This document shows, piece by piece, positions 5,210 to 61,363 of a stretch of DNA of 64,000 nucleotides. The notes beneath the pieces were generated by a model, which had not been told where the DNA came from, did no database searches, and saw only the letters and a program-made list of their open reading frames with translations. Source of the stretch: Rugalucina vietnamica (taxonomy: Eukaryota > Mollusca > Bivalvia > Lucinida > Lucinidae); NCBI GenBank assembly GCA_964017185.1, contig OZ024869.1:61220761-61284760 (forward strand), given 5' to 3'. Within the stretch, counting starts at the first letter, position 1. Each line of letters opens with the position of its first letter. Both the position numbers and the translations under genes were made by a program.

Positions 5210-6331
5210 CTATTTGTCGAAGGGACAATATATAAGTTTATGATCAGACCAATAAGCCTCAATAACATCACTAAACACTTCAGAATTTGAAAAAATCAAG
5301 TCTAGCATTGATCCAGAGTCAGTTGTACATTGACTGATTTGCTGCATACACCAAAATAATGTTTCTACAAAATCCACAAACCCTGTATTGGCACCATCTG
5401 CCTGTACATTGAAGTCACCTAATATGACTAATTTAGTGTTCAGATCAATAACTGGCCTGAGATGACAGTGGATATCCTGTCCAAAATCAGTCTGTGAACT
5501 TTTGGGGTATTTGTACAATACAACAACTTGAACATAACTTCCTTGAACATTGAATATGTCAGCCAATATGAACTCAAATGACTTACATTGCATTTTTACA
5601 ACTTTCTGAATCTGCAAGTACTCCTTTACATATAATGCAAGTCCATGATATGGCCTGTTGTTTGCCTCTTTTACTGTGTCATCAAGTCTAACAAGTCTGA
5701 ACCGTTTCAGGGCAAAATGTACATTTTTATCCCTACTACATAATCTTGTTTCAGAAAATCCAATGACATCTGCTGCCAACACATTTGGTTCAAATTCAAC
5801 ATCCTTTAAATGTTTATGTAAGGATCTAGCATTGTTGAATGCGATTTTGGTTTTGCCAGGACCAATTTTATACAGAGGAATATAACAGAGCTCCAATGCA
5901 GCTTCTCTGCGTGGCCTTTCCATCTCTATATTCACATCATTATCTACAACCAGAGCAGCTTCATTCATATTCAATATATATAAATCCTCAAGCTTTTTCA
6001 CACGACTAAATGCAACATAGTGCATATGTGGCATTTTATACTTTCTGTCTTTCTGGGATAAATCAACAACTACCCTGTCTACTGTAGCTCCTTCAGCTTT
6101 GTAGACTGTTTTACCTGAAGCTGGTGTCAGTGGAAATTGGCTTCTTTGAAACGTTTTGTAGTTCACTATAAATGATCGTTGTGTTTCAAATACAGGTGTC
6201 CATTCTGAATGAATGCTTGAGTTGTAGAATTTCCTGTTTTTTTTCACGTGTTGCCTTACCAACCCGAGGGTCATCAAACAATACCCAAATAATGCTAGGT
6301 CGATTTGTTCCTTCCATCCACCTGAAGTCAA
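5210..6331 (-). pseudogene. Helentron C-terminal part: last PIF1 helicase motifs plus AP-type endonuclease domain
   Basis: The frame is 373 codons; its first 30 or so residues are out of phase with the ancestral protein. From about residue 30 (KKNRKFYNSS) it continues the helicase. A helicase motif VI-like stretch, HYVAFSRVKKLEDLYIL, lies at about 104-120. An exonuclease/endonuclease/phosphatase fold follows: NNAR at 166-169, the metal-binding glutamate in SETRL at 193-197, GDFN at 305-308 and the terminal SDH at 362-364. In this family the domain nicks DNA through a metal-dependent mechanism. Its place after the helicase marks a Helentron. It is separated from the upstream helicase only by the A8-run frameshift at 6237-6244; the endonuclease motifs themselves look intact. 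Confidence 0.85.
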
Positions 6332-8010
6332 CGTGTTTCACCACACCCGTAGCACCATTGGTTAAACCGTCTTCTACATCTACATTAGCTGTATGAACAA
6401 CAATCATTCCAACAACTACTGTTAATGACTTCTTCAATTGTCCTGTTTTGCCATAGTCTTTTGGAAGCCCATCAATAAGGGACTGCTGTCTTTTAGCAGG
6501 AATGTTTGATGAGACAACGATGTCATGGCATGGTATTATAATTTTTTCCCCTGGCAACTGACTCAAAATAGTGTCATTGTGTTGGTCTACATAAAAATTC
6601 TCCGCAAACAAATGAAGGGCGTCCTTTGGATAGTCATCAGTTTCATGGTGAACAACACATGTCTGCAGCTTTTGTTTGTCTTCCTCTGTCATTTCATTCA
6701 ACCGAAGTCGGTTTAATAGTTGTGCAAATGCAAGATCATCTTTCTGCCTCATGATATCAACCAATTCATACATTGTAAAGAGTTCTTTCCATAAGTTTTG
6801 TCCTAGTGAAGATGCTCCCACTTTCAAATCAAGTCTTATCAAATAATCACCTACTGGCTTTAGCTGGTACAGATCACCCACAGCAATAACACTTAAACCA
6901 CCAAAAACTTCTTTTGTTCCCATGAGCTGCTGTAAACGAATGTTGATAAAATTTAATGTCCTGTTCCCTACCATTGATATTTCATCAATAATGACAAGTT
7001 TCAGATGTCTATACTTAATTCTGAATGTGTTTAATTCATCGGCTGAAAGATGATTTGTGCCCTTTTGATACATTTTCTGGTGGAAAGTAGAGGAAATGGT
7101 TTGGCCACTTATATTCAATGCAGCAAAGCCCATGTAAGCACACAGTAAAATTCGTTTATCATCTGGATTTTCTCCATCTTTCAAATTCCACAATCTATAT
7201 AGACATTGATAAAGCGCCCGAATCACAACTGATTTACCAACACCTGCACCTCCTGTTAAAAAAGCATAGACTGGTTCATCTTTGGATTTAATCCAGTGCA
7301 CAATATGGTTAAAGAATTCTCTTTGTCTCAAATTAAGACTTCTGAGTAGTTGTAAATATTCATCATCTGGTAATAAAATACCACTTGTTTCTACTGGTGG
7401 CACTGAGCAAGTTGACTGTAATTCTATACCAATGTCATAATGCCTCTGCTCTACAACTCTGCTTGGGTTAAAGCAAACAAATGTTTCTGATTCTGCTGAC
7501 CCTTCTTCTTCCATTTCTCTATTTTCTTGCTCTGCATTAGGTGCAATTTGATCATAATCCCTTTCCTCATTTTCCATCATTTGTCTTGCAATCTCAAGCT
7601 CTTCAGCATGATGCTCATACTCATTTCTTTTGGACACCAGGGATGTCTGCACCGAGTTAAACCGAGCTTCATATGTTCCAAAAGAACCCATTAAATCCTT
7701 TTGTTCATTTCGCCAAGGTACAAAAAGCATAAGCTGCTCTCTAAAGTAATTTTCTGGATCCCTCTTTCTGTTGTATTTTACATACCTTATTATTCTTGGT
7801 ACTTTTCTTTTCTTGTATTTTGTTCCATTTTTTGCTTCGAACAACAGGTCTGAACTTTGACTGTTATTATCATCCAAGCTGTCATCACTTTCATCACCAG
7901 AGCTATTGACAAAACTGTCATCATCATTAGTGTCATCAACTTTCTCTGAAAACTTATTTCCTTTTGGAAAAGTGACGTCAACCTTTGAGACATAATCAGC
8001 TAAACATAAA
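6186..8010 (-). pseudogene. Helentron PIF1-like helicase domain
   Basis: The frame is open from about 8010 to a stop at 6186. In the 563-residue part starting at a TTG (7877) it shows the YFREQLMLFVPWRNE signature common before Helitron helicases (44-58), Walker A GGAGVGKS at 209-216, Walker B IIDEIS at 296-301 and the GDLYQLKPV motif at 334-342. The helicase unwinds DNA 5'-3' during rolling-circle transposition (family knowledge). Upstream, the acidic linker (codons for LADYVSK, then many D and S) is in this frame but lies one base out of phase with the Rep part, so a single-base deletion near 8010 separates them. The last helicase motifs lie in the next frame after the A8 frameshift. Confidence 0.88.
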
Positions 8011-8902
8011 TTTCCAAGCTGCCTGGGTCTTTAGAATACCTCTGTATTACATTTACAGATTCTACATCTGTGGATTCAGCAGGAAGTTCATCAAGAGCAG
8101 CTTTTGGCTTCAACAGAAAGATTCTTTCTTCTGGTATAGATGTGTTGATGAAAACAATATCCCTCGTACATTTTGTCAAAGGAATTTGCAGATCAAGATA
8201 AACAGCTTCTTGAGCACTGACCTCAACACAGTTAGAAAATACATTCCCAATATGCCTGACTTGTTTCTTTAGGTCAAGATTTCCTCTTCTAGCCTCTTTC
8301 GCTGCTGCCTCAAGTTGTGCACTCATACCTCTCTGTGATTTACTTATATAACCAACTATATATGAACCACAACCGTATGGCTCAAGAACAATCTGAATGT
8401 CAAGATTGGCCTTCCAGGCAAGAAGTATGTTTTCATTAAATGGATTTATTCTCATTTCCTTCACTTTTCGCTTAAAGAAAACCTTTGGTGCTTTCAATGA
8501 GCTTCTAATGCAACAAATATAATCTTCAAAATCCATTCTAGCAATTTTTTCTAGAAACTCATCAAATGGTATGTCTTCATTTTCCTTACACTCATTCATT
8601 GATTTTTGGAGCTCTACATTCTTTTTCTTGTACTTGTCAATGTTTTCTTCAAGAGGATACAGCAACATAGTTTTCGGTAATGGTGGCAATGGAAATCCAA
8701 ACCTACATATTGGTTTCCCCTTTTTTCTGCAGGTTCTAGAATGTTTGTGACTTTGAAGGTTAACAAGATTTGCTGTTTTCTCATTATCACTGTTGCAGGT
8801 AAGATATTGATCAACAAATTCAATTATTTTCTGTTCTGACTTTGTTTCTAAAGTTGGAGCATTTTGTACCCAAACAAGCATGTGAATATGAGGGGAGCCA
8901 CG
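8000..8902 (-). pseudogene. Helentron Rep endonuclease, HUH domain
   Basis: The Rep nickase cuts and joins DNA at the transposon end through active tyrosines. The HUH motif is encoded at 8882-8890 (His-Ile-His), directly followed by MLVWV. The classic Helitron zinc signature HKHSRTCRKKGKPICRFGFP lies at about residues 46-65 of the open frame. Two candidate catalytic tyrosines, Y174 and Y178, lie in SYIVGYISKS, the expected Y-x3-Y spacing followed by Lys. The domain is cut off from its N-terminal half by an in-frame TAA at 8903-8905, three codons before RGSPHIH is completed, so Rep is not made in one piece. It ends at a frameshift near 8010. Confidence 0.88.
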
Positions 8903-10950
8903 TTACTGAAACTCAACTCTATAAAAATAGTCAAGTACCTTTCCAATTGGCTCAGAACCGCTTTTTAGAATTGTATTGAGGAACTCTTGAACCCTATGAT
9001 CAAAGTACCTTGAACATGTAACTGGGTCTTTCTGAACTAGTTTTGTTTTCTCTTGCCAAGTAAGCCTTTCTAATTCTGTTTCAGAATATTCAATACCATC
9101 ATTTAATGTTGCTAGCATCTTCAACAGATCTGTCCATCTAGTATCTGCAGCTGACAATGACATAAACCAAGTAGGCAAAGAAAGTTGCCTAATCATTGCA
9201 AAAATGTCTTTCTTGCGCATTTCTAAATAGGCAGGTGAATTTCTCAGTTGGCGAAATATATAATAGCCTTCATCAAGATTTACAAGTTTGTCCAAATAAT
9301 TTGAATCTCTAGCTTCAGCTGCAGTTATTTTTTTTCCTCGCTTTTTACATCTTCTAACAGCTAGGTTGACTTTATCACTGATTTGTTTCATCTGTAGCTT
9401 TTTGTGTTTAAAGAATATATTTGGAACTGACTGTGCAGCTCTCCTGTCAACACTTCTCAATTCCCATTTAACAATGTCACTATAATGAACTGGAACAATT
9501 CGTTCTTCATTACTAGGTGGTGTTTGTCCACAGAATATGGATGGGAAGCACAAATATTCTGCATCTTTATCATTATATAGACTTAAAGGATGTTGTCCTT
9601 CACCTGGTGCAAAAGTGAAAACTTTGTCAGATGTACTGTCAATATCAGCATCATCCACTAATGTATCAATATTGCCAACATGGTCATTAGCATCTATCTC
9701 ACTGTAATGATCAGAATCATAATCAGTTGGTGCATTAGCGTCCTTTTTACTTGTGATTTCTTCCTGCTTTTCATTTTCCTTACTATGTTTGTCATTAGTT
9801 TGTTCTCTTGGAACTCCTAAAAATTCTCTGACTGTTTCCTCTGCACTTTCAGTAACTTCCTGAAACCAGTCATCATCAATTACAATGCCAGAGTTCTTGT
9901 ATAGCTTGCTGTTGTTCATAAGCCAATGCAGAGCAGTCAAAACTCTTAATGGTCTTACATTTTCTTTAAAGTCAACCGTTTTATAGGAAAGTTTCTTTTT
10001 CAACTGGATAGCAACTGTAAAATTTTCATCCATTGGCCTTGGCAGACAGTTTATTGTAGGCTGAATATCAACAGGAACATTGATTACATTCCCTTTCAAG
10101 GAATATTGGCCACCACGTGGTAATTCTCTTATCTGCATAAATGGAATACGCAGTGCTATTAACCTCTCTTCTAATTGGTGTAAGTTTAGCTCTGGTGGCT
10201 TGATTGGCCACTTCATTCCATTAGTTACTGATAGCTTTGGAATTTTATTATCTCTTAAGGCACTTAAGCAAGTATGAAATATCCATTCTTTATTATCGAC
10301 AAATATAAAGTCTGTACAATGCTGTCGTTTACTTTCGGCTGGAATATGGGTATTCTTTAACATAGAAACACTTTTCCTGAACCATGTCTGGTGACAACAT
10401 GAACAGACATACAAAGGCCCAATAGAAATATCGGAATGAAATTGTTTGATAGCATTTTCAATATTTACAAAGTCTTTGCGCTGAGGTTTTGGAACACTAT
10501 CTGTGTCATGCTTACATCTTTTTCTAGGAACATTTATTCCAGAATTATCTTCAAATTTTCTTTTTTCCTGCCTTACTTGTTGCTTCTTAATTCTCTCACA
10601 TTCAAGAAAATAAGGATTTTCCCTTGCCTTCTGTTTTGATGCCTTCTGGTATATTCTCTCCTTTGCATTAAAATTATGATTTTTCCTTGCTGATTGCTTT
10701 GATTCCAACTGATACACAGTTTCTTTTCTTTTGAACACAGGGTCTTTTCTTGCTGATTGCTTTGATTCCAACTGATACACAGTTTCCTTGGCCTTAAAAA
10801 CAGGATTGCCTCCCACAGATTGCTTTGATTCTCTTTCTTTTGTTTTGAACACAGGGTCTTTTCTTGCTGATTGCTTTGATTGCAACTGATACACAGTTTC
10901 CTTGGCCTTAAAAACAGGATTGCCTCTAACAGATTGCTTTGATTCTCTTT
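8903..10950 (-). pseudogene. Helentron linker repeats, cysteine-rich DUF6570-like region and Helitron-like N domain
   Basis: This frame runs from the repeat linker to the TAA just before the HUH motif. The N-terminal 110 residues are alternating copies of KETVYQLESKQSARKDPVFK-type units. A CSCCHQTWF segment and the LRIPFMQIRELPRGGQ stretch resemble the region usually found before Helitron N domains (family resemblance, not tested). The last 200 residues include PAYLEMRKKDIFAMIRQLS and WFMSLSAADTRW, the core of the Helitron-like N domain leading into Rep. The linker between these is rich in D, E and N. The part upstream of about 10946 is in another frame because one linker repeat lacks four bases. 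Confidence 0.82.
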
Positions 10951-11440
10951 TGTTTTGAACACAGGGTCTTTTCTTGCTGATTGCTTTGATTCCAACTGAT
11001 ACACAGTTTCTTTTCTTTTGAGCACAGGGTCTTTTCTTGCCGGTTGTTTTGATTGCAACTGATACACAGTTTCCTTGGCCTTAAAAACAGGATTGTCTCT
11101 AACAGATTGCTTTGATTCTCTTTCTTATGTTTTGAACACAGGGTCTTTTCTTGCTGATTGCTTTGATTCCAACTGATACACAGTTTCTTTTCTTTTGAAT
11201 ACAGGGTCTTTTCTTGCTGATTGCTTTGATTGCAACTGATACACAGTTTCCTTGGCCTTAAAAAAAGGATTGCCTCTCACAGATTGCTTTGATTCTTTTT
11301 CTTTTGTTTTGAACACAGTGTCTTTTCTTGCTGATTGCTTTGATTCCAACTGATACACAGTTTCCTTGGCCTTAAAAACAGGATTGGTTCTCACAGATTG
11401 CTTTGAGTCTCTTTCTTTAGCTTTGAATGCAGGATTTTGT
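10690..11440 (-). repeat. In-frame tandem repeats in the Helentron linker
   Basis: Alternating blocks encode ETVYQLESKQSARKDPVFK (63 bp) and a shorter block resembling ESKQSVRGNPVFKAK. They repeat about nine times and are nearly identical at DNA level. The composition is Lys/Gln/Ser-rich, hydrophilic and likely helical. The homogeneity suggests recent expansion or gene conversion. This array holds two of the element's lesions: the AAA-to-TAA stop at about 11126 and the 4-bp deletion near 10946. Confidence 0.8.
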
Positions 11441-12309
11441 CTACATTTTCTTCTATAAGTTTTATAATACTCCATGCGATTGTTTTTTCTTTTGGCCCCT
11501 AATGCTTTTTTTGATTCTGCCATTGATATGCTTGGCATAATACTTTGTTTTATTTGTGCTTTGTGAGCTTGTCTCAACCTTTGATCATTGAAGTAAGCTT
11601 CCATATTATGTTCCATTTGATCTGTACAGCTCTGTGTTTCTTCAGTCTTTTTAACTTTGATAGGTAAGAAGTCAAACTGTAAGTTGGTGTTGGTATCTAA
11701 ATTTAAACTGCCATAAAATGCATACATATATGTAACTAGGTCATTGATACTTGTGAAAGTTATCAAACAGGATGTACCATCATTTGATGAAAGTCCATTT
11801 TCTCCATGGGAATGAGAATCAAAAAACACATACATGCCATTCTTTCTAAATACAGCAGAGCATATGGCCCCAATGGTTAAAAGACCTGATGATGTATACA
11901 AAAATACTGACTGCAATACTTCGTGAAGTGTTGGCAAACCCAGATTTTGAGTATCTAAAAGCACGCCACTTACAATCTGCTGTTTCTCAGATGTAAATTT
12001 TCCTATCTCTACTTTAAAATCATCTGGAATTTCTTCTAAAGTCAGCAGGTGGTGAATGAATTTTCCATCTTCTCTTAATTTGTTTATCACACTCCGATAC
12101 AGAACATCTCCCTCACAAAGCACCTTGTCTAATATAGAGCTCTTTTCAATATCAAGGCAGGAAGAGTATGACAGCATACATAATGCATTACATGTGCACT
12201 GATATCCTCTTGATTGCTCAGAAAATCTGACATCACTCTGATGAAAACTTCCAAAGACCAAATCACTGGCATTCCACAATTGTTCAGATGATCCAGTGTG
12301 ACTTCATGT
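11125..12309 (-). pseudogene. Helentron N-terminal protein part with cysteine-protease-like domain
   Basis: The frame is open from just after a TGA at about 12309 and has no convincing ATG. Numbered from the TTG at 12279, a GYQCTCNALCML segment with candidate nucleophile C28 is followed by VFFDSHSHGENG, giving a possible D154/H156. The layout resembles papain-fold deubiquitinase-like domains of the large-tegument or OTU kind that are known in Helentrons and related proteins. This is inference from the pattern, not an alignment. Residues 240-384 are basic and enter the linker repeats, ending at a nonsense codon. The missing start suggests truncation or insertion at the 5' end, where a long perfect inverted repeat lies. 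Confidence 0.65.
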
Positions 12310-12486
12310 CACATTGACACTGATGTGATGTTGTTATATCATGAGCATGCTGATGTGCTTCTTTTTTAAACAGATCAGAAAGTATGATATTTCTAGCTTC
12401 TTAATTTGAGATTTCATATAACCACCCAGCATGCTCATGATATAACAACATCACATCAGTGTCAATGTGACATGAAGTCACACTGG
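12293..12486. repeat. Perfect 59-bp inverted repeat around a 76-bp loop
   Basis: Arms 12293-12351 and 12428-12486 are exact reverse complements over 59 bp (outermost bases CCAGTGTGACTTC, innermost GAGCATGCT). The left arm overlaps the first codons of the Helentron N-terminal frame. No target duplication is evident outside the arms, so it is either a fold-back insertion or a structural part of the Helentron 5' region. Confidence 0.9.
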
Positions 12487-19387: not shown

Positions 19388-19556
19388 TTGTGTGGTCTTT
19401 AAGAGCACTACACGTTGTAAATGACTTTCCTCACGTGTCACACTTATGTATGTCTTCTAATTCAGCCGAAGTGTCAAACTTAGAATTGCAGACGTCGCAT
19501 TCATATTTTTGGACGACTATGAACATTGCATCTACAATGAAATACATAGAGGATAT

Positions 19557-19707
19557 TTGCTTTTTTTGAGGTGAAAACCAAATATTTTCATCTCGTGAGT
19601 TGAAAACATCAGAATTTTCACGAGTGCGCAGCACGTGTGAAAATTTATATGTTTTCAACTCACGAGATGAAATATATTTGGTATTCATCGAAATAAAAAA
19701 GCAAATT
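19557..19707. repeat. Imperfect palindrome, arms about 70 bp
   Basis: Left arm from TTTGCTTTTTTTGAGG inward and right arm ending near AAAAAAGCAAAT are inverted copies; the central parts share CATCTCGTGAGTTGAAAAC. The loop is nearly absent (centre near 19625-19640, around CGAGTGCGCAGCACGTG). Likely a hairpin MITE. Confidence 0.75.
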
Positions 19708-27939: not shown

Positions 27940-29190
27940 TAAGGTACGTGGACAATTCGGACCTTCGCTAATTCGGACCTGATTCGGACCTCAGCTGTGG
28001 ACAATTCGGACCTTGGCTAATTCGGACCTTGGCTAATTCGGACCTCGACCACTGGTCAATTCGGACGCCGCAAAATCGAGGTCCGAATTAGCCAATGATT
28101 TTTTTGAAATAGGGTCCGAATTAGCCAAGGTCCGAATCGGATTAAGGTCCGAATTAGCCAATGTCAGAATCTGTTTAGGATCCGAATCGACCACATTGAA
28201 ACAGGAATTAGGTCCGAATCAGCCAACTGATTCGAGAAGGAAGGAGTGTATGTGTCTGCAAATCATGGCAATAAAAATCATTGTAGTACTCATGCCTTTA
28301 TTTCATGCAGTGAAATACTTTGTTTGTTCATTGATTGATTTGTTGATTAGCATCCCAGTCAACAGATATGGTCATGTCGAGACGTTGCCTCAGTTTTATA
28401 GGACATTTACCCAACATTACGATGTCATTATACCCAAAATGCGCTTGAAAGTACAACCACGCAAGTAAACACTAGGGCTTATATGTGTGGATGGTTTAAA
28501 TTTAGGCACGTCCAGACTATCTGAGCGGTTAACCAGTGATCAGACGGACAGTAAGTAGTGAATAAGATTTGTCTGTAGGCTCATACAGCCCATTTATTTC
28601 TTACAAGTACTTTGCGTTTTGTAGTTCACGCTCCTCTGGTGTATAACGTTAGCTAGCGCAAACCGCATTTTACCTTATGAAATGCGAGACCGTCATACAG
28701 CACGGCAATGAATCAGTAAAGCTTGCTTACACGTACAACAATCGTGAAAACAATAAGTAGTCTATTAAAACGACACAGCAGATTGTACGGCCTGTATATG
28801 GATTAAAGTCTCATTCTAGATGTTAGGACGGCTGTTTTTTTTTTTTTTTTTTTTTTTTGTTTTTTTTTATCTGAGCGCGGTTTTCTATATGGAAAATGCA
28901 TAATGCAAAGGTCTGAATTGACCAATGGAAAAGGTCCGAATTGACCAAAGTAAAAGGTCCGAATTGACCAAGAGAAAAGGTCCGAATTGACCAAAGAATT
29001 TTTCTTTTTGAGGTCCGAATTGACCAATGAAAAAAGGTCCGAATTTACCAGTGATCGGGGTCCGAATTAGCCAGTGGTCGAGGTCCGAATTGACTAGGGC
29101 CGAATTTTTTAGGGTCCGAATTGACTAAGGCCGAATTAGCCAAGGTCCGAATTGTCCATAATAAGGTCCGAATTGCCCATAATTATGCTT
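27940..29190. mobile_element. Fold-back element whose ends are arrays of GGTCCGAATT motifs
   Basis: The left 280 bp hold about seven TTCGGACC words followed by about six GGTCCGAAT words, and the right 290 bp hold about a dozen GGTCCGAATTGACC/AGCC words. The outermost sequences of the two ends are inverted (GGACAATTCGGACCTT read inward from both sides). The 670-bp middle includes a 90-codon open frame at 28196-28468 without recognisable motif and a poly-T run near 28833-28868. No transposase. Confidence 0.75.
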
Positions 29191-51897: not shown

Positions 51898-52470
51898 ATT
51901 GTTACGACCTAGCCTTGCAGCGGAGAACTTCTCTGTCTGGAATCCCACCGCTGCCACCACTTTTTATGTTACGACCTAGCCTGGCAGCGGAGAACTTCTC
52001 TGTCTGGAATCCCACCGCTGCCACCACTTTTTATGTTACGACCTAGCCTGGCAGCGGAGAACTTCTCTGTCTGGAATCCCATCGCTGCCACCACTTTTTA
52101 TGTTACGACCTAGCCTGGCAGCGGAGAACTTCTCTGTCTGGAATCCCACCGCTGCCACCACTTTTTATGTTACGACCTAGCCTGGCAGCGGAGAACTTCT
52201 CTGTCTGGAATCCCACCGCTGCCACCACTTTTTATGCTACGACCTAGCCTTGCAGCGGAGAACTTCTCTGTCTGGAATCCCACCGCTGCCACCACTTTTT
52301 ATGTTACGACCTAGCCTGGCAGCGGAGAACTTCTCTGTCTGGAATCCCACCGCTGCCACCACTTTTTATGTTACGACCTAGCCTGGCAGCGGAGAATTTC
52401 TCTGTTTGGAATCCCACCGCTGCTACCACTTTTTATGTTACGACCTAACCTGGCAGCGGAGAACTTCTCT
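51898..52470. repeat. 67-bp tandem array, about 8.5 copies, carrying an LTR-end/primer-site box
   Basis: Unit starts GTTACGACCTAGCCTGGCAG at 51901, 51968, 52035, 52102, 52169, 52236, 52303, 52370 and 52437 (exact 67-bp period, few substitutions). Each unit contains CCACCGCTGCCACCA, the same word that ends the interior of the TRIM 1 kb upstream (minus-strand primer-binding-site-like box), and TGTTACGA, like the LTR start. The array is thus an amplified LTR/primer-site junction of a related element. Confidence 0.9.
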
Positions 52471-57409: not shown

Positions 57410-57960
57410 TATCCAAGGTTTGCGTTATATCTCAGACATGCTACGCCAAGGTTTGTGTTATGTCTCAGACATGCTAAGCACACGCTATCATGAGCCACAT
57501 CAAACGTTAAACGCGCGTCTCCTACACGCCTGGGACAAGTTTTTGAAGCAATACTCTCGGAAAATAGGAGCGTGCATGTAGCGCACACTGGCGTGCCTAA
57601 AACGTGTGCCAAAGGCGTCCAAAGCATATTCAAAGCACCTGTAACGCGCGTGGAACTTATTCAAAACATACATGTATATGATATACGTCCGAGACACGTC
57701 GAGCTTGCAGAAAAATTTTAAGCACGCTTGAAAATTATTTTGAGCCCAAACGCGCCTGGAACGCGCACCGACCTGCATCAGTATTCAAGATGATTTTTTC
57801 ATGTTAGCAAACGTTCATTTATCAAAATCAGATACTTGTTGTCTCAGAAACTACTAGCTTATAACTTTAATCGTTAATATGAGATCATTATACATAATGC
57901 TAAAGGAGCCGCCTCTAGCTTTTATAAAAGCTATTCTAATCTAATCTATTCTTATCTAAT
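57406..57960. other. CG-containing spacer with short repeats
   Basis: A duplicated CTCAGACATGCTA word at 57433 and 57465 lies near the start, CACGC-rich DNA follows, and (ATCTA/ATTCT)-type short repeats lie at 57930-57960, directly before the retrozyme array. Confidence 0.35.
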
Positions 57961-57965
57961 CTAAA

Positions 57966-58009
57966 GGGTCACTGACGAGACTTTAATAGTCGAAACCGCG
58001 GTATGGCCC
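57966..58009 (+). ncRNA. Type I hammerhead ribozyme, unit 1
   Basis: Stem I GGGTCA pairs with TGGCCC (58004-58009). Core CTGACGA is at 57972-57978. Stem II is GACT/AGTC with loop TTAAT (57979-57991). GAAA is at 57992-57995. Stem III is very short, ACC/GGT with GC between, followed by cleavage after the A at 58003. ACCGCGGT is self-complementary, so two hammerheads could share a stem III as a dimer, as known for Penelope/retrozyme hammerheads. All conserved core nucleotides are present. Confidence 0.9.
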
Positions 58010-58342
58010 ATCCTCTTTCTCATTAATGTGTTCGCTGCTCTTAAAGGATCTCAGTTTTAATTTTTATTTGCTATTACTGCAGCTGGTGTTGTGCCGTGTG
58101 GCGGCCCTAAAAAGTCTCCCCGTACATCATCCATAGTGCAGGTTATATTTTCCTTTTGGTCCTTTGAGATCAGCGAGGGTATTCTGAGAAATCAGAAATT
58201 TATTATCGGTTAAGATTCATTTTCTTGCCAATATTTAATATATTTGGTCCCGTTTAGATAAGACTAGTCTTTGTATCGACTACCATGTTGAAAGTTGCAG
58301 GGTTTCAGTAATTCTCTTTGGCTCCATGTTGCCATATCTAAA

Positions 58343-58386
58343 GGGTCACTGACGAGACTTTAATAGTCGAAACCGCGGTATGGCCC
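58343..58386 (+). ncRNA. Type I hammerhead ribozyme, unit 2
   Basis: Identical to unit 1, 377 bp downstream; predicted cleavage after 58380. Confidence 0.9.
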
Positions 58387-58719
58387 ATCCTCTTTCTCAT
58401 TAATGTGTTCGCTGCTCTTAAAGGATCTCAGTTTTAATTTTTATTTGCTATTACTGCAGCTGGTGTTGTGCCGTGTGGCGGCCCTAAAAAGTCTCCCCGT
58501 ACATCATCCATAGTGCAGGTTATATTTTCCTTTTGGTCCTTTGAGATCAGCGAGGGTATTCTGAGAAATCAGAAATTTATTATCGGTTAAGATTCATTTT
58601 CTTGCCAATATTTAATATATTTGGTCCCGTTTAGATAAAACTAGTCTTTGTATCGACTACCATGTTGAAAGTTGCAGGGTTTCAGTAATTCTCTTTGGCT
58701 CCATGTTGCCAAATCTAAA

Positions 58720-58763
58720 GGGTCACTGACGAGACTTTAATAGTCGAAACCGCGGTATGGCCC
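58720..58763 (+). ncRNA. Type I hammerhead ribozyme, unit 3
   Basis: Identical core and stems, another 377 bp on; predicted cleavage after 58757. Confidence 0.9.
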
Positions 58764-59096
58764 ATCCTCTTTCTCATTAATGTGTTCGCTGCTCTTAAAG
58801 GATCTCAGTTTTAATTTTTATTTGCTATTACTGCAGCTGGTGTTGTGCCGTGTGGCGGCCCTAAAAAGTCTCCCCGTACATCATCCATAGTGCAGGTTAT
58901 ATTTTCCTTTTGGTCCTTTGAGATCAGCGAGGGTATTCTGAGAAATCAGAAATTTATTATCGGTTAAGATTCATTTTCTTGCCAATATTTAATATATTTG
59001 GTCCCGTTTAGATAAAACTAGTCTTTGTATCGACTACCATGTTGAAAGTTGCAGGGTTTCAGTAATTCTCTTTGGCTCCATGTTGCCAAATCTAAA

Positions 59097-59140
59097 GGGT
59101 CACTGACGAGACTTTAATAGTCGAAACCGCGGTATGGCCC
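59097..59140 (+). ncRNA. Type I hammerhead ribozyme, unit 4 (in the partial unit)
   Basis: Identical to the others; predicted cleavage after 59134. The partial unit ends about 57 bp later. Confidence 0.9.
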
Positions 59141-59197
59141 ATCCTCTTTCTCATTAATGTGTTCGCTGCTCTTAAAGGATCTCAGTTTTAATTTTTA

Positions 59198-59604
59198 TCT
59201 TGTATTCTGTACTGTTCTAAAATTAGAACCACGCTATTTTTAACATGTGTCGGGCTTTCCAGCTAAAAATCGATACACAAACACCAAGAACAAGGAGCTG
59301 GTAACCGCTTTACCAGACAGGTTAAAATACGTCTTATCAAAGAATCGGAAACCAGTATAAAATGAGGCACTTCATGGGGGTTTTCAGCTTAAAATCCTCT
59401 GTTGTCAGGTCTAACACAATATAAGACACCCATTGAAGACCCCTATATCTTACATTGACAAGAAAACTAAAACAAACAAATAAGTAGGTCACCGTACTAT
59501 TTTAGCCATATTTTACATACCTGCAGCAAAAACAATGACGTCTTCACATCGAAAACACAAATTACATAAAAGAAATAAAGTTGACAAATCAAAAGAAAGT
59601 TACA
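59198..59604. other. No recognisable feature
   Basis: Spacer between the retrozyme array and the Penelope-like 3' end. No further hammerhead core was found here on either strand. Confidence 0.35.
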
Positions 59605-60214
59605 AGTAGGCAAAGATCAGGAAAAGGCGCAATCAGAAAAAGATTCCCACTCCAAAAACCGAGGTGGGAAAAAACCAAACTAACAATCAGGTACTTATAC
59701 CATGAAACATATCGTAAGCCGAATGAGCAGCTATTTTCCCAATAGGTGGCCACTCAGTTACCTTAACTTAACTAAAAATATGAAAACATACATAAGGCGC
59801 CAACAGCACAAAAAATTTTAAACACCAAGACATAAAACAAAAAGAACCACTACAGAAGTATCGACTTGGAACGATCAGTAACACAAAGTTACTGGCGGGC
59901 TTAAACCGGTTTTACAGGTACCTAACCTCACCCTCAGCTTCTGCAGTGGTTCACAACATTTAGTTAGTTCTTCGGTCCTCGTGGTGAATCTCTAACTAGT
60001 CAATGAATCATCAAGAACAAACAAATAAATCATGATAAACATCCTGATGAATCAAAAACCAGGACTCACAGATTGAGTAAGCTGCCCGACGATGGAGATC
60101 CCTGGGCGCCGAATAACCTACTAACTCCGGAGCAAAAGAAAAACACCAGTTGGACCCCGGTGGGCCAAGCAACAGACAAGAAGCTCCGGCCCCAACCAAC
60201 TAAAATGAATAGCT
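59605..60214 (-). repeat. Probable 3' untranslated region of the Penelope-like element
   Basis: Lies downstream of the RT stop on its coding strand and ends at the TACAAGTAGGCA boundary that also limits copies at 26785 and 2700. No GIY-YIG domain is readable here. Confidence 0.55.
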
Positions 60215-61363
60215 TTAAGTCGGGGCCATCATAGAGTCTGACGCCCGACCCACCGGCGTGCAATTAAAGAAGGCAGCATAGTTATCAACCATGATTGGGT
60301 TAAAAACTAAGCATGCAGACTGTCGCATAACATTCAAGTTATAACCTATACGTCTGTAACGTGATATGATTTTTCCGAACTGAAGAGAAAAATCATTTAT
60401 TCCTTTAAGTTTCTTTAATTTGTAAACCAAGTCACCATAAAATTCAGGTTCCGAAAGGCCCTCACTTAAAAGTGTCTTTAACCCAACATTATATTTGGAA
60501 ATCAATTCATAGTGTCTACGATAAAATTTAGAAAAGGTTTTTCGAAGTTTATGATACCGATAGCCCTGTTGGAGAAGTTTTGCCGTTAAACATTTATTTC
60601 GAGCGTTGAAGTCTGTAACATGATTGCAGACTCTAGCAAACCTAATAAGTTGCGAAATGTATACACCATAAGAAGCACGACGAGGAACGTCACCATCCAA
60701 AAAAGGAAAATTTACTATATCAAAATCAAAGTCATCGCGCTTATCATAAATTTTAGAAGAAACAAATCCATTTGCAACAGAAAGATGTAGATCTAAAAAG
60801 GGGGCTTCGGTATCTGAGATATTAGCTTTGTTCAACTGAAGTTCAGGTGGATAAATTTGATTGACCATACCTTCAAAATAAGGGTTGTCAATGTTCAAAA
60901 GGTCATCGAGGTACCTAGATGTGGAATTAAAAGCCTCGATAACATCAGCTTGATTATCATGGTTAAGAGAATCCATGAAATCTCTTTCGTAGCAGTATAA
61001 AAATAAATCAGCTACGAGAGGTGCGCAATTTGTACCCATCGGAATTCCAACAATTTGTCTGTATAACTTGGTCCCAAATCTAATATAAATATTATCAAGG
61101 AGATAGGATAAGGCGTCGCACACATTCTGACATGACCAAAGGGTATACCGACTTTGGTCAGAGGAAGTGAAAAAAGCCTTTCTGTCATTACATGCCAAAT
61201 AAAGTGAACCATAGTTTTTTAATGCCCTTTTGAAGGTCCACTCTATCAAATCCAGAAGTTTTTCTTTAATTAGATTATGTGGTAATGTTGTATACAGAGT
61301 AGAAAAATCATATGTGGACAAGCCTGTCGCACGGAACCCTCTACACTTCAATTTACTGAGCAT
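60215..61363 (-). CDS. Penelope-like element reverse transcriptase (5'-truncated ORF)
   Basis: Open frame of 382 codons. RT motifs: TYDFSTLYTTLPH at 18-29 (motif A, D19), GIPMGTNCAPLVADL at 106-120 (motif B) and RYLDDLL at 150-156 (catalytic DD). The GIPMG motif and the DFSTLYT form are typical of Penelope-like elements and the related telomerase-type RTs (family knowledge). The C-terminus ends without a GIY-YIG endonuclease. That fits either truncation or the Naiad-type PLEs, where the endonuclease is N-terminal. An in-frame stop lies about 14 codons upstream of the first ATG, and nothing endonuclease-like is readable before it. Partial RT; otherwise undamaged. Confidence 0.75.
   Translation of the reverse strand: MLSKLKCRGFRATGLSTYDFSTLYTTLPHNLIKEKLLDLIEWTFKRALKNYGSLYLACNDRKAFFTSSDQSRYTLWSCQNVCDALSYLLDNIYIRFGTKLYRQIVGIPMGTNCAPLVADLFLYCYERDFMDSLNHDNQADVIEAFNSTSRYLDDLLNIDNPYFEGMVNQIYPPELQLNKANISDTEAPFLDLHLSVANGFVSSKIYDKRDDFDFDIVNFPFLDGDVPRRASYGVYISQLIRFARVCNHVTDFNARNKCLTAKLLQQGYRYHKLRKTFSKFYRRHYELISKYNVGLKTLLSEGLSEPEFYGDLVYKLKKLKGINDFSLQFGKIISRYRRIGYNLNVMRQSACLVFNPIMVDNYAAFFNCTPVGRASDSMMAPT

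Follow-up and report, generated by a model that had tools for sequence, protein, structure and literature searches.

The locus described here raises the question of how a tandem array of short ribozyme-bearing units came to lie in the genome of the lucinid clam Rugalucina vietnamica, and which enzyme copied it there. The window, that is, the whole 64,000-nucleotide stretch of DNA that was analysed, contains the array at 57958-59198. Three full units of 377 bp are preceded by a 5' partial copy and followed by a 3' partial of 64 nt, with 59198 as the last base to match the unit; TRF places the array at 57958-59206 with a period of 377, 3.3 copies, and a 99% match. The unit is 377 nt long with a G+C content of 39.5%, and a frame listing at a threshold of at least 120 aa holds no stop-to-stop frame of that size within the array. 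Units 2 and 3 are identical, and unit 1 differs from both at unit positions 259 and 332. The sequence-only reading of this DNA had described near-identical units with a hammerhead in four copies at exact 377-bp spacing. Both descriptions are confirmed, the former by just two differing positions across the three full units and the latter over 57966-59140, where each of the four hammerheads begins with GGGTCACTGACGA. The array is made up of the following features.

57958..58003, plus strand: 5' partial unit; the BLAST match of unit 2 begins at 57958 (unit position 332), just upstream of hammerhead 1
57966..58009, plus strand: hammerhead 1, with stem I GGGTCA/TGGCCC, CTGACGA, stem II GACT/AGTC, GAAA, and the palindrome ACCGCGGT; predicted cleavage after A58003
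58004..58380, plus strand: unit 1, 377 bp counted from the cleavage site
58343..58386, plus strand: hammerhead 2; predicted cleavage after 58380
58381..58757, plus strand: unit 2, 377 bp
58720..58763, plus strand: hammerhead 3; predicted cleavage after 58757
58758..59134, plus strand: unit 3, 377 bp, identical to unit 2
59097..59140, plus strand: hammerhead 4; predicted cleavage after 59134
59135..59198, plus strand: 3' partial unit ending in TTTTTAT; 3' end common to the sampled arrays, putative start site of reverse transcription

The 5' boundary may be off by a few bases, since a short CTAAT-rich repeat (57931-57963) at the 5' edge of the array blurs both that boundary and any target duplication.

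The retrozyme itself belongs to a published kind, the animal non-LTR retrozymes (Cervera and de la Pena 2020, PMC7229834). As far as the available part of that paper goes, it resembles them in that a short, tandemly repeated unit present in many copies bears a type I hammerhead, and its 377 nt and 39.5% G+C lie within their range of about 170-400 nt and below 50%. The nearest of those described there are the repeats of Mytilus galloprovincialis, which measure about 350-390 bp. The kind is further marked by coding for no protein, by the lack of LTRs, of a primer binding site, and of a polypurine tract, and by self-cleavage and circular RNA.

Based on the evidence set out below, we put at roughly 0.7 the probability that the array is a young insertion of such a retrozyme, moved by a Penelope-like reverse transcriptase (RT) that recognises a 41-nt module, by way of circles. 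The tandem units would be transcribed, and hammerheads of neighbouring units would pair via the palindrome ACCGCGGU and cleave the transcript to 377-nt lengths, probably to be circularised by a host ligase. The RT of a resident Penelope-like retrotransposon would then recognise the 41-nt module and initiate internally, at a T-run about 16-18 nt upstream of the module. From there it would run round the RNA, so that insertions would contain one to eight similar units and vary at the 5' end but hardly at the 3' end. The retrozyme would thus have acquired the module of the retrotransposon and be mobilised in trans.

A search of the genome (1.09 Gb, 47 contigs) gives 2,511 first-look candidates for retrozyme arrays, of which the best 40 were scored (139 matches). 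These 40 arrays include that of the window, and seven were dropped as duplicates with shared flanks, so that 33 are independent. Since both samples used here are the best 40 of many (2,511 candidates for the retrozyme and 1,591 for the retrotransposon), they favour young, complete copies. The sampled arrays hold 1.15 to 7.9 units and lie at unrelated sites on 12 contigs. Their 3' ends are nearly constant (circular R 0.998): counted from the ribozyme cut, 32 of 33 fall at unit positions 61-74 and that of L038 at 49. In the 32 arrays whose retrieved sequence reaches the 5' end, these ends are dispersed over the unit (R 0.16, p 0.44). An 84-nt arc about the hammerhead (314-20), picked after the end data had been viewed, takes in 15 of these 32 ends against an expected 7.1. 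The ends are BLAST limits that may be off by some bases, and the flanks of L042 and L064 still hold unit sequence. None of the 33 arrays ends at position 377, where a hammerhead-made RNA would end; the template must therefore cross the cut site, either as a circle or as an uncut multimer. Fixed 3' ends and dispersed 5' ends imply that copying begins at one internal site and stops variably, a pattern in keeping with target-primed reverse transcription that has a constant internal start and not with an expanding satellite.

Divergence is 1.51% within arrays (70 pairs) versus 5.16% between arrays (72 units, all 40 arrays, duplicates included). The earlier proposal that a hammerhead retrozyme was recently amplified via RNA is thus supported by the dispersed arrays, the fixed 3' end, and the scattered 5' ends, as well as by within-array likeness and a slow-changing hammerhead core. 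Target site duplications, which exceed 4 bp in animal retrozymes when they occur, are rare, and this counts against the main reading: they reach p<0.02 in 4 of the 39 arrays tested, and p is 0.25 for the window array. These are of about 45 bp in L054, 28 bp and imperfect in L048, 20 bp and imperfect in L033 (p 0.011), and 11 bp and exact in L037 (p 0.017). The 3' end is followed by C in 15 of 33 retrozyme arrays and in 21 of 38 retrotransposon copies; this common preference was set aside as evidence, being confounded by how the end is defined.

Near-identical units with changes private to one array favour a circle as the template. For example, the three units of L066 are identical and show 10 array-private columns, the seven units of L070 diverge by 0.15% and show five such columns, and the window array is of the same sort. 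These arrays speak against an origin of the copies from linear, uncut multimeric transcripts, with the ribozyme taking no part in transposition, but gene conversion could mimic them and they are not decisive. An anole element offers a precedent for linear templates, since in vitro its RT inserted RNA whose hammerhead was dead, according to the available part of PMC11167929. The heterogeneous arrays L032 and L037 also fit linear templates, or else age. Conservation of the ribozyme core counts on the other side, and on the whole we consider linear templates unlikely, though a serious contender.

The retrotransposon proposed to supply the RT is represented in the window by a 5'-truncated copy with the following features.

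59596..61362, minus strand: 5'-truncated copy of the candidate mobilising retrotransposon; 3' end at 59596, 5' limit set by the match to the tandem copy L071
60215..61396, minus strand: RT-like open reading frame of the window copy, with DFSTLYTT, GIPMGTNCAP, and YLDD recognised by eye; no Pfam match
60173..60240, minus strand: SECIS of the retrotransposon, Rfam SECIS_1, 39 bits against a gathering threshold of 35

The window copy, about 390 bp away from the array, lacks the 41-nt signal; it is a bystander at this locus. The idea that the array abuts the 3' end of a retrotransposon is ruled out, as the family ends at 59596, some 390 bp off. The tandem copy L071 (L071:551-3501) contains GIY-YIG-like and RT-like parts, as judged by eye, and three in-frame UGAs. 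In the partner the GIY-YIG-like part precedes the RT and the SECIS follows it. With its UGA codons and the SECIS, the partner looks like a selenoprotein retrotransposon. The 40 best-scoring copies of the 1,591 candidates are 99-100% identical to the window copy over about 1,105 nt, which suggests recent activity; five further rows are partial, at 77-97%. Head-to-tail tandem copies occur on contig C16, with junctions 4,228, 4,228, and 4,153 bp apart. Among the best-scoring copies, 38 of 40 stop at L071:247-258 and the other two run into a tandem neighbour.

From its motifs (read by eye), its tandem arrangement, and its 3' ends, the partner looks Penelope-like, a class marked by a GIY-YIG endonuclease and a telomerase-like RT. 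Its RT has no Pfam match in either reading and no PDB profile match, and its AlphaFold model is unusable (pLDDT 46). Penelope-like elements in many cases, though not in all, carry a hammerhead in their terminal repeat. L071 and the window copy between them cover the unit of the retrotransposon, and their sense strand contains no CTGANGA followed by GAAA 6-40 nt later. A hammerhead in the partner was dropped as a candidate on this absence of the core pattern; the antisense strand has one core-like match, by sequence pattern only. Naiad-type Penelope-like elements, reportedly described by Craig et al. in 2021, are said to have an endonuclease upstream of the RT and to take selenoprotein forms in some invertebrates. 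With its parts as read by eye, the partner would resemble them in both respects.

The Penelope-like element of the anole studied by Frangieh et al. 2024 (PMC11167929) has an RT that starts internally in vitro and needs a downstream RNA region, as stated in the available part of the paper. On the same basis, the partner resembles it in having tandem copies and in that the RNA site at which insertions end is internal and lies upstream of the region required by the protein (in the partner, putatively the module). It differs in the GIY-YIG-like part before the RT, the UGA codons, and the SECIS, and in that the anole element has a hammerhead while a search of the sense strand of the partner found none.

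Relatives of the RT at 81% and 75% identity (P0030 and P0074) are named from Candidatus Thiodiazotropha MAGs. Bacteria of this group live in lucinid clams, and the matches are probably host DNA in bacterial bins.

The retrozyme and the retrotransposon share one stretch, identical at 41 of 41 nt (unit positions 85-125 and L071:267-307, E 2.9e-17), of which the sequence-only reading makes no mention. It occurs in the window as follows.

58088..58128, plus strand: 41-nt signal of unit 1, identical to the L071 stretch
58465..58505, plus strand: 41-nt signal of unit 2, identical to the L071 stretch
58842..58882, plus strand: 41-nt signal of unit 3, identical to the L071 stretch

In the retrotransposon the 41-mer sits at the unit junction of tandem copies, and the junction holding it matches at 99-100% at the 40 places scored, of 1,689 candidates. 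The gap from the 3' end to the 41-mer has a median of 18 nt in the retrozyme and 16 nt in the retrotransposon, and TTTTTAT stands at the 3' end of both. The chance that a random 41-mer in a 377-nt circle would fall within 5 nt of the matched spacing is 0.03, computed post hoc. Outside the 41-mer and TTTTTAT, no other similarity was found between the two elements. The tie between them is the module and not the ribozyme, because no hammerhead was found in the partner by the core pattern.

Genome-wide, the exact 41-mer occurs 2,989 times and its reversed control not once; 2,471 of these occurrences have the flanking bases T and A of the retrozyme. Among the first 100 places listed, 81 have the retrozyme flanking bases, judged by those bases only, and the remaining 19, all of which were fetched, comprise 18 retrotransposons and one variant retrozyme. 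With the unit as query, BLAST over the masked flanks and window (142 kb) gives seven rows (in L049, L059, and L038), none of them over the 41-mer; they are taken for old retrozyme pieces. The 41-mer forms a predicted hairpin, which different outer arms extend in the two elements. Against mononucleotide shuffles the energy of the longer hairpin gives p values of 0.04 and 0.0065 with short flanks and 0.056 and 0.004 with longer ones, and its pair count gives 0.13 to 0.36, so the longer hairpin is only suggestive.

The 41-mer could instead be a promoter or other transcription signal in both elements, with the retrozyme retrotransposed by a different RT. The junction of a tandem retrotransposon is a plausible place for a promoter, and the conservation of the 41-mer is not extreme: it diverges by 1.33% among retrozymes against a unit average of 2.75%, and 21% of 41-nt windows equal it. 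A promoter, however, gives no reason for a fixed start of reverse transcription, nor does it sit easily with TTTTTAT at both ends or with a near-equal spacing from the 3' end in otherwise dissimilar elements. We regard a shared transcription signal as distinctly improbable.

Several observations touch the two families or the signal without entering the argument. The retrozyme arrays L037, L044, and L067 lie in or against copies of the partner family, in both orientations. At L103:124-255 a young retrotransposon 3' end adjoins an old retrozyme fragment inside the shared signal region. This was considered as template switching; insertion of a young element into an old copy is likelier, because the retrozyme part matches the unit at 80% identity and the retrotransposon part is near-identical to its family. 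A pattern match in IMG/VR (L031) is taken for chance, the similarity to the unit being at most 14 nt, and so is one in Pseudorhodobacter (L112), where only a 21-nt core and a few bases agree. The 41-nt signal and the RT have no match in viral_contigs, and the unit has none in phages.

The retrozyme as the vehicle of a borrowed RT signal invites comparison with SINE/LINE pairs, in which the two elements have a common 3' tail and the non-coding element borrows the RT recognition signal of the autonomous one. Unlike in those pairs, the signal here lies beyond the inserted 3' end and would be reached only on circular or multimeric RNA. We know of no report of such a signal common to a retrozyme and a retrotransposon, and none was found in the literature searched (titles and abstract openings; open-licence papers). 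A signal common to an autonomous retrotransposon is not described for retrozymes in the available part of PMC7229834. The enzymes named there and in PMC7761336 and PMC11722881, as far as their available parts go, are LINEs, Penelope-like elements, and Terminons, on the basis of common hammerheads, tandem copies, and co-occurrence. Where these papers offer candidates for the enzyme that moves animal retrozymes, the present genome offers one co-resident family with an exact signal. What is new is the exact signal at matched spacing in a co-resident retrotransposon without a visible hammerhead, which suggests which enzyme copies the retrozyme. A partner in which no hammerhead is detectable is unexpected. 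We lean towards the more general view that animal retrozymes are moved by Penelope-like retrotransposons via a borrowed RNA module and not via the hammerhead, and that the ribozyme would serve to supply a template without end, from which an RT that initiates internally would produce tandem arrays. The question of the mobilising enzyme is thereby reducible to a single RT assay with a single RNA.

The role given here to the ribozyme depends on the hammerhead being functional. A type I descriptor (CTGANGA, stem II of at least 3 bp, GAAA, at least one stem III pair, UH, and stem I of at least 5 bp) finds exactly the four listed sites on the plus strand of the window and none on the minus strand, while 60 dinucleotide shuffles of the window give a mean of 0.033 matches per window and a maximum of 1. 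With stem I open and short loops on stems II and III, the motif differs from the type III hammerhead by which plant LTR retrozymes are recognised. Helix III consists of an A-U and a C-G pair only, closed by CGCG. In the available part of PMC7229834, a C-G pair beyond the core A-U together with a palindromic CGCG tetraloop is given for the axolotl ribozyme HHR_Amex1 and not for invertebrates. The hammerhead had been called intact, which holds for its core and does not hold for a stable monomeric fold, as helix III has two pairs. The covariance check went against the sequence-only reading, which had named a missing match as grounds for its rejection: the Rfam hammerhead is absent at the gathering threshold over the window, at E<=10 over 57500-59700, and at E<=1 over the window. 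Our guess is that the minimal helix III accounts for the miss.

Folding predictions point to a dimeric ribozyme. The predicted minimum free energy structure of the monomer is another fold (-12.5 versus -8.6 kcal/mol for the hammerhead), whereas that of the dimer is a double hammerhead (-35.1 kcal/mol), because the palindrome pairs two copies. Since axolotl ribozymes with a one-pair helix III and a palindromic tetraloop need dimers, according to the available part of PMC7229834, we expect that the ribozyme would act mainly as a dimer. The 377-nt RNA as a whole folds more stably than its shuffles (z -2.2; 2 of 100 shuffles are as good).

Both the missing Rfam match and the predicted preference of the monomer for another fold would be explained if the hammerhead-like sequence were an inactive decoration. 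The pattern of change across the sampled arrays makes this very unlikely. Among 83 equal-length instances in 33 arrays, which are not independent within one array, change per site per instance is 0.004 in the catalytic core, 0.0125 in the stems, and 0.087 in loop II; the core is thus the most conserved part of the motif, changing at one third the rate of the stems and about one twentieth that of loop II. The core is intact in 96 of 101 instances (all 40 arrays, duplicates included), and the Rfam miss is weighed less than this conservation. Least credible of all is an ordinary satellite DNA grown by unequal crossing-over and bearing a ribozyme by chance, which would yield tandem, homogeneous units but predicts no common 3' end such as the sampled arrays have at unrelated sites on 12 contigs.

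Elsewhere in the window, the minus strand at 5210-12303 contains frames with domains of three kinds (PIF1 helicase, endonuclease/exonuclease/phosphatase, and herpes-tegument-like N-terminal), and the whole looks like a Helitron-type element. Matches to microRNA families below their cut-offs at 12291-12486 and 19553-19707 are probably inverted-repeat transposons. A 67-bp tandem repeat (8.5 copies, 97% match) lies at 51900-52470, at the end of a PHD-finger frame, and irregular repeats of GGTCCGAATT or its complement occur at variable spacing in 27954-29183.
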